Assembly: GCA_016199925.1 (NCBI GenBank)
Contig: JACQFT010000005.1
Coordinates: forward strand, 1-54,587
Length of the DNA: 54,587 nucleotides
Direction: 5' to 3'
From: Opitutia bacterium
GTDB lineage: Bacteria > Verrucomicrobiota > Verrucomicrobiia > Opitutales > Opitutaceae
Shown here: in pieces, positions 31,582 through 39,922 of the stretch
Layout: each line of letters starts with the position of its first letter
Position numbering within the stretch: position 1 is the first letter of the stretch
The notes under the pieces: generated by a model
What the model saw: the letters and a program-made list of their open reading frames with translations, nothing else
Told to the model about the DNA's origin: nothing
Databases searched by the model: none
Program-made: the position numbers and the translations under genes

Positions 31582-31759
31582 GGTGGGCGAGGATAGTCCG
31601 TCGGGCTGATTTGGCCAGCGGAGGGGGCGGCGGAAACCGGCGGGCCGGGACGCCTGCCGCTACGATCTGGGGCCACTGCGGGTTTAGCCGGCGAGACGGG
31701 GCTGCGCGTTGCGGGTTGCAATGCGCCGGGGAGACGGTGTTATGCAGGCTACTCATTTC

Positions 31760-33310
31760 ATGCTCCGCAAGCTCATCAGCACCATCCGCCAGTCCTTCAA
31801 GAAGGCCGACAAGAAACCCGACGCCAAACCGGCTCACAAGCACGTCAAGCCGGCGGCCAAGACCGGCCCGGCCCATCCCGCGCGCCACGACGACGCCCGT
31901 CCGCCGCGTCCGCACGGCAGCCATCGTGGCGGCGGCGGCCGTTCGCCTACCTCGCACGATTCGCGCACATCGCACGAGCCCCGCGCGTCGCACGATTCGC
32001 GTTCCAGTCACGCGCCGCGCAGCTCGCACGCTCCGGCTCCCCGACCCGCGCACCCGCCGCGCGCTCCGCAGGCGCCCAAAGTTTTGCAGGAAGTGCCGAA
32101 GATGGACACGCTGTTCACGGCGCTCGGCCTGAACGACCGTCTCGCCTTCGCCGTGCAGCAGATGGGCTACGAGACCCCGACGCCGATCCAGGCGCAGGCC
32201 ATCCCGCAGGTGCTCGCCGGCAAGGACGTGATCGGCTCCGCGCAGACCGGCACGGGCAAGACCGCGGCGTTCGCACTGCCGATCCTCCAGCGGCTCGCCA
32301 CGCACGGCAAGATGCGCTGCCTGATCCTCGAGCCCACGCGCGAACTCGCCGTGCAGGTCGAGGAAGCGTTCAAGAATTTCTCCAAGTTCACCGACCTCCG
32401 CGTGACCGTCGTCTATGGCGGCGTCGGCTACGGCAAGCAGCGCGAGGACCTCGCGCACGGGATGGACATCCTCGCCGCGACGCCGGGCCGCTTGCTCGAC
32501 TTCATGGAGCAGGGCGAAATCCGCCTCGATAACATCGACATCCTCGTGCTCGACGAAGTCGACCGGATGCTCGACATGGGTTTCCTCCCCGACGTGAAAC
32601 GCATCGTGTCGAAGGTGCCGAAGGCGCGCCAGACGCTGTTCTTCACCGCGACGCTGCCGGCCGAGATCGAGCAGCTCGCCGCCTGGGCGCTGCGCGACCC
32701 GTTCAAGATCGCCGTCAGCCGCGAGCGCTCGACCGCCGAGACGATTTCGCACGGCTTCTATCCCGTCGTGCAGGCGCAGAAATTCGCGCTGCTCGTCCAC
32801 CTGCTGGAGCAGACGGACTACAAGAGCGTGCTGATCTTCTCGCGCACGAAGTCGGGCGCCGACTACGTCGCCAACCGCCTGATGCACGCCGGCCACACCT
32901 GCACCGTGATGCACGCCGACCGCAGCCAGCAGGAACGCACGGATGCGCTAAAGGGTTTCAAGTCCGGCAAATTCGAAGTGCTCGTCGCGACCGATGTCGC
33001 CGCGCGCGGCCTCGACATCGCGGGCGTGTCGCACGTCATCAATTTCGATGTCCCGGAAAACCCCGAGGACTACGTCCACCGCATCGGCCGCACCGGCCGC
33101 GCGCAGAACACGGGCGACGCGTTCACGCTCGTGACCGAGGAGACTTGGCGCGACGCGCGCAGCATCGAGCGCTTCATCGGCATGAAGATCGAGTGGAAGA
33201 AAGTGGAAGGCTTCAACTACACCTACTCCGGCATCTTCGACGGCGGCGGCATGCCGCAGGTCGCCGAGCCGAAGCCGGTGAGCCGCCTGCACCGCGGCGT
33301 GCGGCGCTGA
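31760..33310 (+). CDS. DEAD-box RNA helicase (with DEVD variant) and basic N-terminal tail
   Basis: A 516-aa RhlE-like RNA helicase. The Q motif is GYETPTPIQAQAIP, Walker A AQTGTGKT at 161-168, then PTRELAVQ, TPGRLLDF, motif II DEVD instead of DEAD (VLDEVDRMLDMGF), and motif III TAT instead of SAT. SVLIFSRTKSGADY, ATDVAARGLDI and HRIGRTGRA follow. Conserved motif III/II changes of this kind occur in active family members. Residues 20-105 form a disordered basic tail with SHDSR/SHEPR/SHAPR repeats, probably for RNA binding. ATG 31760 is chosen; ATG 31742 in frame is the alternative. Most likely a cold- or ribosome-biogenesis helicase. Confidence 0.92.
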   Translation: MLRKLISTIRQSFKKADKKPDAKPAHKHVKPAAKTGPAHPARHDDARPPRPHGSHRGGGGRSPTSHDSRTSHEPRASHDSRSSHAPRSSHAPAPRPAHPPRAPQAPKVLQEVPKMDTLFTALGLNDRLAFAVQQMGYETPTPIQAQAIPQVLAGKDVIGSAQTGTGKTAAFALPILQRLATHGKMRCLILEPTRELAVQVEEAFKNFSKFTDLRVTVVYGGVGYGKQREDLAHGMDILAATPGRLLDFMEQGEIRLDNIDILVLDEVDRMLDMGFLPDVKRIVSKVPKARQTLFFTATLPAEIEQLAAWALRDPFKIAVSRERSTAETISHGFYPVVQAQKFALLVHLLEQTDYKSVLIFSRTKSGADYVANRLMHAGHTCTVMHADRSQQERTDALKGFKSGKFEVLVATDVAARGLDIAGVSHVINFDVPENPEDYVHRIGRTGRAQNTGDAFTLVTEETWRDARSIERFIGMKIEWKKVEGFNYTYSGIFDGGGMPQVAEPKPVSRLHRGVRR

Positions 33311-33325
33311 ATGCCGCGCGCGGGC

Positions 33326-33690
33326 TCAGGGCGCGAGCGTCAGGTGGAGGGCCTTGAGCGCTTCGCTGACGGGCACCGCGAACACCAGCCCTGCGTAGCC
33401 CGAAGCGGAGATTTTCCAACTGATGAGGCCCGAATGCGTGCCCGTCTTTGTCGACGGGCGGACCGCCGCTGTTGCCGGGGTTCACCTTCAGGTCGGTCGG
33501 TAGAAACTTGCGTTGAGCGATGACGCGCCCGCCGCTGACGACGCCTTTGGTGACGGGCGAGCTGAGTTCCTCCATCGCGGGGCAGCCGGGGCGCGCAGGC
33601 GTCGGCGCCGGCGGGAGGTGCGCCGGCACGGTCCAACTCGATCGCCATGTGCGAGGAACCGGGCCGTTTCAGCAGAGCGACGACCAACCG
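33326..33690 (-). pseudogene. degraded HtrA/Deg-like serine protease fragment
   Basis: Read on the minus strand across at least two frames: ALLKRPGSSHMAIELDRA, then ELSSPVTKGVVSGGRVIAQ, then TDLKVNPGNSGGPPVDKDGHAFG. This carries the catalytic GNSGG serine loop of trypsin-like HtrA proteases. After one extra C at about 33427-33431 it continues ISWKISASGYAGLVFAVPVSEALKALHL to a TGA at 33326. The His and Asp parts of the catalytic triad and any PDZ domain are absent. It is a 3' remnant abutting the ribonuclease G remnant. Confidence 0.8.
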
Positions 33691-33691
33691 C

Positions 33692-34213
33692 TCCGGGCCC
33701 GGCCGCTACCTCAGCCTCATGCCGTTCTCCGACGGCTGCGGCAGCTCCCGCAAAATCGAGGCCCCCAAGGAGCGCACGCGCCTCCGCCCGACGCTCAACG
33801 GGCTCCCCATCCCCGAAAGCCTGGGCGTCATCGTCCGCACCGCCCGCCGGCGAAGGGAAAAATCGCTCCGTCGCCCGCCGCCTTCAAGCCCGCAAAGACG
33901 GCAAGGAATACGCCCTCCGCGTCCACACGCGCCCGGCGATCCTTAAGCGCCTGCACTCGGACGACGCGGACCTCCTCATGCGCATGGAGAAAACCCACGG
34001 CATGAGATTGGCCTCCTGCGCCGGCCCCAACTACCACGCCTGGCAGCCACAGGCTCGGCGACGGCAGATCGAGAATTCTTGCCCGCCGTAGGCTTCGCGA
34101 AGGAGGGTGAAAATTATCACTTGTCGCGGCGGCTCGCCTCGCCAAAGCCTCGGCGACGGCTGAAGCCCGACGGGCGAAGACGGAACGCGATGACGGACGA
34201 GGAAAACCGGTAA
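33692..34213 (+). pseudogene. degraded ribonuclease E/G (rng) fragment
   Basis: It starts within the S1-type region (GPGRYLSLMPFSDGCGSSRKIEAPKERTRLR...IPESLGVIVRTA), the classic RNase E/G segment. It then jumps by a frameshift near 33850, with loss of the entire catalytic domain, to the C-terminal part (ALRVHTRPAILKRLHSDDADLLMRMEKTHGMRLA...PNYH). After a short insert it reaches an end of the type NAMTDEENR with TAA at 34211. The 3' part is duplicated at 35574-35761 behind the Fic gene. No intact rng is present in the window. Confidence 0.78.
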
Positions 34214-34277
34214 CAAATCTTTCTCGTTCTCTTAATCTTTCTCTCTCCGCGCCCGGTCTCACCGCCGGGCGCATTGT
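33961..34277 (+). repeat. direct repeat flanking the Fic gene, left copy
   Basis: It matches 35580-35827 from cctcctcatgcgcatgga through agccacaggctcggcgacgg and attcttgcccgccg to ctttctctctccgcgcccgg. The left copy has an extra segment of about 70 bases (34115-34190). It comprises the 3' end of rng plus its downstream sequence, including the stem ggtctcaccgccgggcgc. Confidence 0.85.
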
Positions 34278-34356
34278 TCCTAAGGCCACCCCGCGGGCCG
34301 GCGAGCTTGCTCGCGCCGAACCCGTCCCCGCACCGGAAACAGCCGCCCCACGCCCC

Positions 34357-34421
34357 TTGCGGCGAATAGCCGCCTTATTCACCGCAGCTCATGCGGCGAT
34401 TACGGCTTGTATTCGCCGCAA
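34357..34421 (+). promoter_or_regulatory. nested inverted repeat upstream of fic
   Basis: A perfect 12-bp inverted repeat, ttgcggcgaata (34357-34368) and tattcgccgcaa (34410-34421), with inner gccg/cggc and ccgca/tgcgg arms. It ends 21 bases before the fic start and could be an operator or an RNA hairpin. Confidence 0.6.
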
Positions 34422-34426
34422 CTTCT

Positions 34427-34439
34427 GCGGAGTATCCGC
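34427..34439 (+). promoter_or_regulatory. 13-base palindrome directly before the fic start
   Basis: gcgga gta tccgc, a perfect 5-bp palindrome, ends 3 bases before the GTG at 34443. It covers the place of the ribosome-binding site, so it could block translation or bind an autoregulator. Confidence 0.5.
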
Positions 34440-34442
34440 CCC

Positions 34443-35573
34443 GTGCGTTACATCCACCAGCTCCCGGCCTGGCCTCGGTTCGCGTGGGACGACGCCACGC
34501 TCGCGCCGCTTCTCACCGACGTCAGGCACCGCCAAGGCCGTTTGCTCGGCCGCATGGCGGGCTTGGGCTTTCGCTTCCGCTCCGAAGCCAATTTGGAAAC
34601 CCTCACCTCGGAAGTGATCAAATCGAGTGCGATCGAGGGGACGATCTTCGACCCCGAATCCGTCCGATCCTCCCTCGCCCGGCGGATGGGCTTGCCGGGC
34701 CACGACGAAGTTCCGTCGCGTCGCGAGGTCGAAGGCGCCGTCGAGATGATGCTCGATGCCACGCAGAAATTCGCCGAGCCACTGACCGTCGAACGCCTGT
34801 TCGGTTGGCAATCCTCGCTCTTTCCCGCCGGCCGGAGCGGCATGCGCGCCGTCTTGGTCGGCCAATGGCGCACGCCCGTAACGGACCCGATGCAAGTCAT
34901 CTCCGGCCCCATCGGGCGCGACAAAATCCGCCCAAAAAATATCCACTTCGAGGCGCCGCCCGCCAAACGCGTGCCCAGCGAAGTCACCGCCTTTCTCCGC
35001 TGGTTCGAGCGCGCCGACTCCACCGACCCCGTGCTCCGCGCCGGCCTCGCCCACTTCTGGTTCGTCACCATCCACCCCTTCGAGGACGGCAATGGCCGCG
35101 TGAGCCGCGCCGTCGCCGACCTGGCTCTCGCGCGCGCCGACGGTTCGGCCCTGCGATTCTACAGCATGTCGCCGCAGATCGAGGCGGAGAAAAAGCAATA
35201 TTACCTCGCGCTGGAAGAAAGTCAGAAAGGCACTCTCGACGTCACGCGCTGGCTCGGGTGGTTCCTCGGTTGCCTCGGCCGCGCGCTGCAAGGCGCCGAA
35301 ACTTCGCTCGAAAAAATTACCCGCAAATCGTCCACGTGGGACTGGATCAACCACACCACGGCAATCAACGACCGGCAGAAGCTGGTCATCAACGCCCTCC
35401 TCGACGGCGCCGACCACGAGCTCTCCACCTCGCGCTTCGCCAAGCTCGCCCAGTGCTCCCTCGATACCGCGCTGCGCGACATCAAACTCCTCCTCGAAGC
35501 CGGCGTCTTAGTGTCAGGCCCGAGCGGCGGCCGCAGCACCAAATACCACCTGCAATCCCCGCCCAAAAGCTAA
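34443..35573 (+). CDS. Fic-domain AMP-transferase with N-terminal inhibitory helix (DUF4172 type)
   Basis: A 376-aa protein with the complete Fic active site HPFEDGNGRVSR at residues 211-222 (catalytic His211, Asp/Glu215, GNG loop). Near the N-terminus SSAIEG (Ser61-Glu65-Gly66) fits the inhibitory (S/T)xxxE(G/N) motif, making it a class II, self-inhibited Fic enzyme. The opening VRYIHQLPAWPRFAWD is the DUF4172 start, so GTG 34443 is preferred over the TTG at 34407. The C-terminus carries a winged-helix-like region (FAKLAQCSLDTALRDIKLLLEAGVL). It AMPylates an unknown target. It lies between direct repeats that contain the 3' end of rng. Confidence 0.93.
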   Translation: MRYIHQLPAWPRFAWDDATLAPLLTDVRHRQGRLLGRMAGLGFRFRSEANLETLTSEVIKSSAIEGTIFDPESVRSSLARRMGLPGHDEVPSRREVEGAVEMMLDATQKFAEPLTVERLFGWQSSLFPAGRSGMRAVLVGQWRTPVTDPMQVISGPIGRDKIRPKNIHFEAPPAKRVPSEVTAFLRWFERADSTDPVLRAGLAHFWFVTIHPFEDGNGRVSRAVADLALARADGSALRFYSMSPQIEAEKKQYYLALEESQKGTLDVTRWLGWFLGCLGRALQGAETSLEKITRKSSTWDWINHTTAINDRQKLVINALLDGADHELSTSRFAKLAQCSLDTALRDIKLLLEAGVLVSGPSGGRSTKYHLQSPPKS

Positions 35574-35761
35574 ACCCCGCCGACCTCCTCATGCGCATGG
35601 AAAAATCCTACGGCGTGAAACTGGCCTTCAGAGCCGACCCCAACTACCACGCCTGTCAGCCACAGGCTCGGCGACGGCTGATCGAGAATTCTTGCCCGCC
35701 GAAGGCTTCGCGAAGGAGGGTCAAAGTCATCAACGCGATGACGAACGAGGAAAACAGGTAA
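35574..35761 (+). pseudogene. ribonuclease G 3'-end fragment behind fic
   Basis: ADLLMRMEKSYGVKLAFRADPNYH, an in-frame insert of about 22 codons carrying a palindromic repeat, then VKVINAMTNEENR and TAA at 35759. It is better preserved than the left copy. The insert cagccacaggctcggcgacg...ttcgcgaaggagg keeps the frame, as in hrpA. Confidence 0.75.
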
Positions 35762-35827
35762 CACATCTTTCTCGTTCTCTTAATCTTTCTCTCTCCGCGC
35801 CCGGTCTCACCGCCGGGCGCGTTGGTT
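35580..35827 (+). repeat. direct repeat flanking the Fic gene, right copy
   Basis: The right-hand partner of 33961-34277, ending in the same ctttctctctccgcgcccgg / tctcaccgccgggcgc sequence. Confidence 0.85.
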
Positions 35828-35934
35828 TTCTCAATGAGCCAAGCGTGTCGCGATACGCGCGTTCTTGCGCGGCCTGCGTCTGCGCGGAGCACGCTCGGGG
35901 CCCAAACACACAAAACGTGCCCCCCGTCGGATGG

Positions 35935-38900
35935 CTACTCGTCATCCATTGCTGCCATGCTCGCTTGATAGCGCTTGCGACTGTCTTCGCGCTCGTGGCG
36001 CTCCGTCTCGGCGATCCAGCGATAGAACGGCCCCAGCACGTCGTCGGTGGCATGCGTCGCGGCGGCCTTGATTGCCTCGGCCTCGACGTAGTCCTGCTCC
36101 TTGTCGAGTTCGCCGTTTGTGCCGGAACGGCTGCGCGGGCCGCTCACGACCCACAGCGTGGTCCGCATGCGCTCGTAGCCTTCCACCCCGGCGAGGTCTT
36201 CGGCAAGACGGAGGATGATCTTGGTCAGTTCCGGAAAGCGGAAGATGATGAGCGATCCGTCGAAATGGATCACTTCCATGAGTTCCCGGAGCTGGTCGTA
36301 GGTGGTGGTGGCGTTCACGGCTGCCGTGAATCTCGGCAGCCAGAAATCAACGTGCTCGAGGACGAGGCCCTGGAAGAGCTCCCGCCACACATAGCCCATG
36401 TAGTCCGAGGCCTTGGCCATCATCTTCTCCCAAAGGAAGGCGCAGATCGCAGGGAATCCGGGGTCCTTTTCGAGGCCGGCCAGCTCGAACCGCGAGAGGA
36501 TGTCCCGCGGCAACACCTGGTAGCGCGCCTTGCGTCCCAGCGTTTCGTAACGGGCGGCGCGCTGGAGCGCGAAATCGTAAACTGCCCGCGGATATAGCTG
36601 GGCGATGCGCTCGAATCCTCCGCCGTGATGATCGACGTTGATCTCGGGGACTTCAACGAGCGCATCCAGCACGTGTTTGACGACCGCCACTGAAGGCGCG
36701 GGGGACTTGGCGTGGTAGGGATTGAGGGCCGCGAGCACTTCGCCGTGTGCGGCGTGGGGCAGTCCTGCCAGCGGCAGCCGGCCGAGCAACTCGAAGCCCC
36801 ATTCCGCGCAGGTTTCTCCGACCCATTGTATGAGTCCGACAAAGCCAAGTATCTCGTCGGGGCCGGCCTTGGCCGCCATCTTTTCCAACAGCGCACGCTC
36901 CGCCGGCTCCAGAGTCATTTCCTTTCGATTACGGAAGCGGAAATAGTCGATGACCCCGCGGCGAATTTCAGTGCGCGGGTGCTCCGCAGCGAGTGCCAGC
37001 AGGCGCACCGCCGCTGCAGAATAGCTTTCCGGAAGACCGTAGAGCACCTGCTGCCAAATGGCGGCGATGCGGGCACCGCCCGCAGGGTCGAGCATGGCCT
37101 CGGCGATGGCGACGGCCCGGTCGGGGTCGCCCTTCGCCAAGGCGGAAATCAATTCGCCCGTGTTCGGGCTGTGACCGGCCTCCAAACTCTCCTGTGTGAT
37201 TTGTTCCAGACGCGCGATGGCTGCCGCCGCGGTGGACAGCTCGCGGAAGAACTCGGCGGCTACGAACCGGACATGTTCCTCCCACCGCGCCTTGATCTTG
37301 GCCTGGGCTTCCTCGCCGCGCGGGGCGCCCACGTCGACGGCAAATTCGAAGTAGCCCTGGGTGTTGATGACCGTCGCCAGCCGCAGGTCGAATGAATCCC
37401 GCACGAGGCCGATGACCTTGCGCGCGGCGCCGGCAAACTCCGGGTCCTCCTCGTAAGCCAGGTCGCGCAGCAGCAACTGGCGGACCGCGAACTGCACCAT
37501 CGTGTGACGATGACGCTGCACCGCCCGCTCCAGCACCGCGAGGGCCCTCAGGCGCTCCGGGCGCCAGAGCACGCGGAATTTTCCCCCGTCCGCCACGTGC
37601 GAGGTCTCGACCCCGGCGACGCGATGCAACGCGCGCTCGATGGCGCGAACGGCGTCCAGCGCGAGCAGCCACGAATCCTCGTCGATCACCCGGCCTAGGA
37701 TGCCGAGCGCCCGCGCGCGAATGGGCGCCGTCACCTCCATGTTCACCGGCTGCTTCCACCACCGGGCCGTGCGCCCCTGCCACTCGTTGAACTCCACGAA
37801 GCAGGGTTCAAGCAGCGTGCTCAGGATTGAGCGGTGCGAGGCGATGATCGCTTGGGCGGAGGGTCTTTGGACGAGCCGTTCAATCCAGTCCAAGGCGGCA
37901 TCGACGATCACGACAGGCTTGCTCGGGGTGAACTTCACCACCTCGGCGATGACTGACCAGGGGTGGTTCGTGCCGCCGTCCATCATGCCGCGCGGGGTGT
38001 CGACGCCGAGTTGCCAGAGGAAATCCAAGGCGGCGGCGCGGTGGGCGTCATGCCAGAGCGCAACCGGCTTGAGGAGCGCGGGAAGATAGGAGCACACGTA
38101 ACGGTGGGAATTGATCCCGTCGTCGGCTTCGTCCAGATGGAATTCCGGAGTTGCGCCGCGGGGTGCCGTCTTCTGGTCGAGCGCCTTGCGGGCCAAGGCG
38201 AGCGATTCCCCGGGCAGAAAGACGCTGAAAGTTTTCCACTGCTCGAGCAGGCGGCTGCGTTCGTAAAAATTCGACGCATCGAAGCGGACGAATTCCGCGT
38301 CGAGGAGCGGTCGCAGTAGTTCATCGCGGCCCATCGCCTGCACGCCGGCGATCCACGAGGCTTCCGCGAGATTGCGCAGGAGCGCCGCCGCTTGGTTCTT
38401 AAACTGCCGCAAAACCGCGGTCGCCAGTTCCGGCAGCCGTCGTTTGAGGTCGAAGGCTGTGTCGAAGACGAGGAAATCGGCGAATAGGTCGGGGATGACC
38501 CGGATGTTCTTGTTCTCGGCCGAAATCACGCCGGCCGCCTGCAGGCGCCGGAGCAATGCTTCAACGTCCACTTTGGGAATATCGAGACAGTTCGCGGTGC
38601 GCTCGTGGAAGATCGCATCGGGCGTCACCGGCGCGAGCAAGGCGATGACCCGCAGGAGGCGCGCCCCCTGCTTGCGGTCGGCTTCGCCCAGATGCTCCAG
38701 ATTGTCGGCCTCGAAGGAGCGGAAGACTGCGGCCCGAAATTCGTCCACGGAATGCCAGTCGCCCCACTGGAGTCGATCGCGCTTGAGCAGGTCGCCGGCG
38801 AGTGCAGTCAGGAACGGGCTGTCGCCGGTCAGGCCGACCAGATCCTTGGCGCGCCACTTGAACTGCGGGCCCAAGGCGTCGACCGCCAGTTCTTCCATGT

Positions 38901-39766
38901 CCTTTTTCTTGAGGGTCAGCACTTCCAACTGTTGCGGCGCGGTGAAGCCGTGCTCGCGCAACCGTTCCTCAAGCGCCTCGTTGCCTTGCGGCCGGGTGGC
39001 GAGCACCAGCTTCGTGGCCGCGCGGCGCACACACGCTGTTGGCCAGCTCCCACAACAAACGACTCTTCCCGTCACCGCCTTTGCCGGAAATCTTGAGCAC
39101 CTTGGCGTTTGGATCGGCAACGAACGCCTTCAGCTGGGCCTTTTCCTTCCGCCGTCCCACGAACTTGTAGTCGTGGTTGAAGGAGTGGCTGGCGCGCTGA
39201 ATCGCCGCAAAGTAGGCTTGGGCCGGGACCAGCGCATCCGTGGCGTAGGGCGCGAAGCGCTTGAGCTCCTCGGGCGCGAGAAAGGACAGCACCGGCGGCT
39301 GCAAGCGGGCGGGCACACGCAGGCGGAACTCAGCGCAGATGCGATCAAGGTTCCAAAAGGACCAGCTAGGATGCTTGGCCATCTCGTCCTGCACGTCCTT
39401 GTGCGGGTCGCAAGCCACGAGGAGGAAATAGTGCTGCGCGGGGTGGGTCGCGTCTTTGACCGCCTCCTTCGATTGCGCAACAGTCCATTTCTTGTGTCCC
39501 TTGCATTGGAAAACCCAGGTCTCCCCGCCTTCCACCTTGGCGATGAGATCGATGCCTTTCTGCGCCCGACCTGTGCCGGCGGCGTAGGTGTTCGCCTCTA
39601 TGATCCGGCGCTCCACGCGCTGCCCATTGCGTTCGATTACCAGGGAAACCCCCGAGTTCAGAAAGCGCAGGAAGAAGCGCTCAAATTCTGTCGCGTTCAG
39701 GTCCGCCAGCCGAAGCCGGAGGTGCTGGTCCAATCGAGATGCGGAATTCTGCGGGATCACTAGCAT
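35935..39766 (-). pseudogene. PD-(D/E)XK endonuclease fused to a STAND-like NTPase (defence-type), frame broken by an internal deletion
   Basis: Read from ATG 39766. Residues 1-150 form a restriction-endonuclease-like domain with Asp73 and Gln87-x-Lys89 (GIDLIAKV...WVFQCKGHK), the Mrr-type active site. VGRRKEKAQLKAF and Walker A SGKGGDGKS (227-235) follow. After LLWELANSV (about 39032) the frame shifts and the protein resumes as KLVLATRPQGNEALEERL. The stretch with the expected Walker B aspartates is missing. The downstream frame runs about 1020 aa to the stop at 35935, with GDSPFLTALAGDLL, a winged-helix-like segment (LLRRLQAAGVIS) and a long helical-repeat region. This layout is that of STAND anti-phage ATPases (Avs-like). 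As it stands the product would be two separate polypeptides. The deletion is unlikely to be a simple base-call error. Confidence 0.75.
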
Positions 39767-39922
39767 CGGCACATATATGAAGGCTCGCCGCCTTGCAGCC
39801 CAATTCCTCGTCTCATCAATCACCACATCCATCGACCACGTGCCGAGCTAAATCATCGTCCCAAATCACCCGACGTTTTTCGGCCGAACGTGGAATCCGA
39901 TTGGCCGCAGCAGCACCTCTCC

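Follow-up and report, generated by a model that had tools for sequence, protein, structure and literature searches.

Why should a fic gene stand between two copies of the 3′ end of another gene, that of ribonuclease G (rng)? This question is raised by a stretch of 54,587 nucleotides (the window) on a contig of an Opitutia bacterium (family Opitutaceae), which belongs to a draft genome of 264 contigs and 3.79 Mb. The fic gene, flanked by two direct repeats designated R1 and R2, has a DEAD-box helicase gene (31709-33310) on one side and a large minus-strand gene (35935-39120) on the other. The locus contains the following features:

33678..34038, plus strand: decayed and frameshifted rng remnant, two rng pieces across an internal deletion of ~740 nt
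33965..34276, plus strand: R1, direct repeat with R2; rng 3′ end upstream of fic, including stop, CT-rich stretch and terminator
34039..34068, plus strand: first palindromic insert of R1, 30 nt (alignment of R1, R2 and intact rng; intact rng lacks the insert)
34078..34107, plus strand: second palindromic insert of R1, 30 nt, belonging to a dispersed element
34249-34272: terminator of R1
34443..35573, plus strand: fic, encoding DUF4172, a Fic domain and a C-terminal region aligned to CbFic2; the GTG start is inferred, and a longer frame opens at 34407
35578..35824, plus strand: R2, direct repeat with R1; rng 3′ end downstream of fic, including stop and terminator
35652..35681, plus strand: first palindromic insert of R2, 30 nt (same alignment)
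35691..35720, plus strand: second palindromic insert of R2, 30 nt, same dispersed element as the second insert of R1
35796-35821: terminator of R2

A first-pass annotation of the window had reported rng 3′ ends in direct orientation on both sides of fic, and both repeats are indeed present at nearly the positions it gave. In each repeat, the 3′ coding sequence of rng is interrupted by two 30-nt palindromic inserts, which stand nine rng bases apart. It then runs through its final codons (EENR) to a stop (TAA at 34211 in R1), beyond which lie a CT-rich stretch and a hairpin terminator. The repeats had also been thought to include about 70 bases of rng downstream sequence; this part did not turn out to be a unique rng flank and consists partly of the CT-rich stretch, which a search of the own genome recovered in many places. 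R1 and R2 align in the same orientation with 89% identity over 155 nt (33965-34119 and 35578-35732) and, in a second block, with 96% identity over 93 nt (34184-34276 and 35732-35824), which is far above chance (E values of 5e-53 and 8e-37 in the own-genome search). R1 is longer by ~64 nt (34120-34183), within which part of its first insert recurs (GCCTCGGCGACGGCTGA). Because the repeats diverge at many positions and by this 64-nt stretch, an assembly artefact at the bracket was excluded. The stop codon of fic lies 4 bp before the start of R2. A search of 33900-35950 gave no sigma-70-like promoter.

An intact rng, presumed by the first-pass annotation to lie elsewhere in the genome, was found on contig C161 and compared with both copies:

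G000:C161:23279-25123, minus strand: intact rng (TIGR00757, 477 bits)

R2 matches this gene with 97% identity over 74 bp and 97% over 31 bp (blastn) and differs from it at 2 of 74 tail bases, while 10 of the 74 are changed in R1. The open reading frame upstream of the intact rng is RodA/FtsW-like by sequence (presumably rodA), and such a frame adjoins rng in all 10 relatives compared; the C161 sequence downstream of rng had no match to what follows rng in the same 10 relatives. Because the upstream neighbor is conserved and the downstream side is not shared, C161 is the native rng locus, with the 3′ side as its variable side. The window was rejected as the native locus, since the conserved upstream neighbor is located on C161. 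The intact rng of the own genome and of 18 relatives, drawn from a set of 30 loci, ends in EEYR or a close variant, and none of these 3′ ends carries an insert of the R1/R2 type.

The remainder of rng in the window had been described as a deleted and frameshifted remnant, and this description was borne out: two pieces match the intact gene by blastn at 87% over 204 columns (33678-33878) and 85% over 173 columns (33866-34038), with ~740 nt missing, and the TIGR00757 profile matches at 33671-33859 with 44 bits, under the family cut-off. Piece 1 differs from the intact gene at 20 bases, of which 5 are at first, 10 at second and 5 at third codon positions, as expected for a gene in decay; in piece 2, the corresponding counts are 8, 6 and 12 (26 in total). 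Between the helicase gene and the remnant (33311-33680), we noticed minus-strand debris with GNSGGPP, which we take to be a trypsin-like motif. The spot upstream of the remnant thus collects gene relics.

These features could have a purely local origin. A stretch of the rng region (its 3′ half, with or without fic) would have been duplicated here once and have decayed, and the second tail would be an unrelated later duplication, with no landing site involved. This fits with R1 being part of a longer remnant instead of a tail alone and with the further gene debris at 33311-33680. R1 and R2 also share both inserts and therefore descend from one copy that already carried them. Counterparts were found elsewhere in the family. 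We queried 252 family genomes with the C-terminal 46 residues encoded by rng. A tail was detected in 224 of these, and 9 of the 224, the own genome included, gave more than one match (G000, G010, G066, G105, G118, G132, G141, G159 and G233). The controls comprised two genes: the AroC tail, judged by match counts alone, was found in 230 of 252 genomes with more than one match in 2, and the RpsI tail (35 residues) in 239 of 252 with more than one match in 0. Extra tails are thus commoner for rng than for either control (Fisher P = 0.034 against AroC and P = 0.001 against AroC and RpsI pooled), which argues against a one-off event. In G010, G105, G132 and G159, the extra tail shares a contig with rng and follows it in direct orientation; in 5 of the 9 genomes (the window genome [G000], G066, G118, G141 and G233), it is on another contig. 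Strain mixture or contamination could be the source of some extra tails. In G066, one of two extra tails resides on a 3.7-kb contig that carries its own rng frame. On another contig of that genome (G066 C83, L235:9930-10015), an isolated rng tail fragment was seen far from rng, ~200 bp behind what appears by eye to be a tRNA 3′ end. The evidence for recurrence concerns few genomes (4%) and is drawn mostly from draft assemblies.

The same bracket with other cargo was observed in three genomes, G010, G141 and G159, which again speaks against a single local duplication, an explanation that we consider unlikely. In G010, rng is followed by fur-family, katG (catalase-peroxidase) and ferritin-like genes and then by a tail whose last ~80 nt are those of the gene. 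The contig of G141 begins within an rng tail and terminator that are identical over 103 bp to the rng locus of that genome; an AAA_16 ATPase gene comes next, followed by a degenerate tail with terminator. In G159, rng and its terminator precede a gene with an internal stop, XRE-type by eye, and then an rng tail. The distance from the cargo stop to the distal tail amounts to 4 bp for the window fic, 5 bp in G141, 0 bp in G159 and ~10 bp in G010. The C-terminus of the fic product is near in length to that of its relatives, and the fic stop is therefore a natural one. The geometry of G010 and G159 fits a restored target end on one side and a displaced partial copy on the other, and in the window the upstream rng is a pseudogene. 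G105 and G132 display two rng tails with only ~40 bp of palindromic sequence between them and type I restriction genes beyond. In this arrangement (loci L230 and L229, behind rng), the first tail copy looks synonymously recoded, although this is an impression only.

A fic gene was also found next to rng in a relative, as the first-pass annotation had suggested looking for: a contig of Opitutus sp. PR.011 (L079) starts inside an rng end and continues with fic, at a stop-to-start distance of 234 bp compared with 232 bp in the window. This adjacency means that insertion of fic into a pre-existing repeat is not required. The gap between R1 and fic has no clear sequence in common with the gap between rng and fic in L079; since 17 of 500 shuffles scored equally, homology of the two gaps was judged unconvincing. 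No closer relation of the window fic to L079 than to fic genes that lack an rng neighbor was evident, and the fork was not separated. The native locus on C161 also carries cargo behind the intact rng (L011:2226-7238), namely, methylase-like, GHKL ATPase, small unassigned and PtuB-like HNH genes, which together resemble a defence cluster, although its type is uncertain. Next to R2, on the minus strand at 35935-39832, lie genes for a 1,061-amino-acid protein without a Pfam or PADLOC match and for a 287-amino-acid protein that is weakly Mrr/AAA_16-like, possibly a defence pair.

Taken as a group, the bracketed genes at RNase G ends point to a recurrent landing spot and not to a one-off accident, and the fic repeat is most plausibly an instance of a bracket that recurs, though rarely, at such ends. 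The explanation that we lean toward, as somewhat more probable than otherwise, is that the rng 3′ end is a recurrent landing and duplication site in the family and that fic is one of its cargoes here. The unit would consist of an rng tail with terminator, a gene with its own control region, and a second rng tail with terminator. The upstream copy would stem from a former rng gene since degraded to a pseudogene, because the working rng sits at its native place beside the rodA-like gene, and the downstream copy would be a younger rng tail that also provides the terminator of fic. Within the rng tail, 11 of 74 bases distinguish R1 from R2, compared with 10 of 174 over the remaining sequence (P = 0.025), and 9 private changes fall to R1 and 1 to R2 (P = 0.02). 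These weak statistics suggest that R1 and R2 differ in age, R2 possibly being the younger rng tail; the mosaic would also fit, again weakly, a crossover or conversion near 34038. The first-pass annotation had proposed either an insertion with duplication of the rng 3′ end or recombination between two rng copies. A bracketed gene fits this proposal, which is supported in part, and the geometry recurs in other genomes; the different ages of R1 and R2, the recurrence at the rng 3′ ends of the family and the adjacency of rng and fic elsewhere were unforeseen.

Partial duplication of a 3′ end beyond the cargo, with the gene itself left intact, is the usual sign of site-specific integration. Such integration, by a lost or trans-acting recombinase that uses the rng 3′ end as its attachment site and leaves the tails as attL and attR, would also account for the defence-like cargo behind the intact rng on C161 (methylase-like, GHKL ATPase and PtuB-like HNH). 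However, no tyrosine recombinase (PF00589) was found on C201 or C161 or near the sites in 8 further genomes, that is, near any site in 9 genomes. The second tail copies start at varying points of the rng tail, unlike a fixed core, and no carrier emerged from a search for the rng tail in plasmids, phages and viral contigs. We therefore regard site-specific integration as quite unlikely. Since no integrase and no phage or plasmid carrier was found, we infer that the bracket would form by recombination across rng tails without a dedicated integrase; the missing recombinase, the missing carrier and the varying tail starts together favor homology in rng over a dedicated integrase. This recombination may proceed by a Campbell-type crossover with a circular molecule bearing gene and tail or by one-sided homologous pairing in rng combined with an illegitimate second join.

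The palindromes raised the further possibility that a dispersed palindromic (REP/RAYT-like) element copied rng sequence along, with fic as a bystander. With up to 2 mismatches allowed, the palindrome was located 23 times in the genome, R1 and R2 accounting for two of these, compared with 0 for a backward control; similar palindromes lie between the two tails in G105 and G132, and Y1-type transposase genes are present in 7 of the 9 genomes. The palindromes fold no better than shuffled sequences. In the own-genome search, however, the other palindrome places lacked rng sequence, and no such palindrome was seen by eye in the junction sequence of the G010, G141 and G159 brackets, which renders this origin very unlikely. 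The first-pass annotation had considered that the repeats might be a common dispersed intergenic element. This holds for their small pieces, the palindrome and the CT-rich stretch, and not for the whole repeat, because the rng part was found in the own genome only on C161 and in the window.

In integron cassettes, too, a gene ends a few bases before a recombination-prone site, with one site on each side; the repeated site here differs in being a piece of a protein gene plus a terminator. One could go further and envisage the rng 3′ end with its terminator as the exchange site of an Opitutaceae cassette system. Single genes with their own promoters, many for defence or stress, would end a few bases before the rng tail and move between rng loci by homologous recombination within this housekeeping gene, not by an integrase. 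We consider this extension of the landing-site explanation doubtful.

Islands of the trmE and dusA type have a partial gene copy on their far side. SGI1 in trmE and the dusA islands carry their cargo behind the 3′ end of a conserved gene (PMC8409611, PMC6531882), as is likewise the case in the window. The bracket described here differs from them in that the target is rng, the cargo amounts to a single gene or short operon, an integrase is missing and the tail start varies; furthermore, the upstream gene copy in the window is a pseudogene away from the native locus. Within the titles and abstracts covered by our literature search (subscription journals lay outside its scope), none dealt with rng as an integration site or with a half-site operator of Fic. 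If the rng end is an integrase-free landing site, islands located there would escape integrase-based tools, and its list of cargoes would be a place to seek new defence genes.

The cargo of the window itself was analyzed by profile and structure-sequence comparison. The fic product has an N-terminal DUF4172 domain (PF13776, 3.7e-31, residues 15-96) and a Fic domain (PF02661, 1.4e-14), and its nearest named relatives are Fic proteins of Opitutaceae metagenome-assembled genomes. Residues 15-383 of 388 align to PDB 8cil (1.2e-82), the entry title of which reads Fic family protein and which we take to be CbFic2 of Coxiella burnetii. An SSAIEG motif at the N-terminus resembles TSAIEG of CbFic2 by eye and indicates that the class II inhibitory helix is present. 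The translation contains HPFEDGNGR, and the Fic motif has been given as HPFx[D/E]GN[G/K]R (PMC2686095). The likeness to CbFic2, which is composed of DUF4172, Fic and a winged helix-turn-helix (HTH) domain (PMC10628234), extends over the full length; no Pfam HTH model matched the fic product, whose alignment to 8cil reaches residue 383 of 388. The PADLOC profile of SoFic, which has been reported as an abortive-infection AMPylator (PMC12249575), also matched (1.8e-40); in sequence, the window Fic is much nearer to 8cil (1e-82) than to the solved SoFic chains (1e-9). Judged by these matches, the gene probably belongs to a type linked to phage defence, and its product would be an AMPylating toxin of the phage-defence kind.

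Directly upstream of fic, we detected an array of alternating half-sites:

34358..34436, plus strand: putative operator array of TGCGGHGAWTA half-sites at 34358 (plus), 34376 (minus), 34392 (plus), 34410 (minus) and 34426 (plus, 2 mismatches)

The array contains two perfect palindromic pairs, with 0 expected by shuffling. The consensus was built from 318 half-sites. Among 80 homologous fic loci, 79 had enough upstream DNA, and 76 of these carried at least two half-sites with at most one mismatch upstream of fic, compared with 1 of 1,008 segments elsewhere in the same loci; the loci without an array were L125, L132 and L139. This array is probably an autoregulatory operator of the Fic family. 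The Fic protein would repress its own gene, with a putative winged-helix end binding the half-sites. Such a circuit has a counterpart in CccR of Yersinia pseudotuberculosis, a Fic toxin with a C-terminal HTH that represses its own gene via inverted repeats (PMC9755527). The CccR site is described there as AGATAATCAT-N26-ATGATAATCT, whereas TGCGGHGAWTA alternates here at 18 and 16 bp. For CbFic2, random DNA was used and the specific site was left open in that report (PMC10628234), in contrast to the conserved half-site array upstream of fic here. The array thus supplies a defined DNA target for a Fic family for which that report had named no specific site; autoregulation is directly testable, and of all parts of this analysis the operator could be tested earliest by a specialist. 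The spacing is regular across loci: 82 of 97 neighboring plus-minus half-sites are 18 bp apart and 68 of 89 minus-plus neighbors 16 bp. According to record titles, the homologous loci come from Verrucomicrobia, Planctomycetes, Acidobacteria, Proteobacteria, Bacteroidetes and others.
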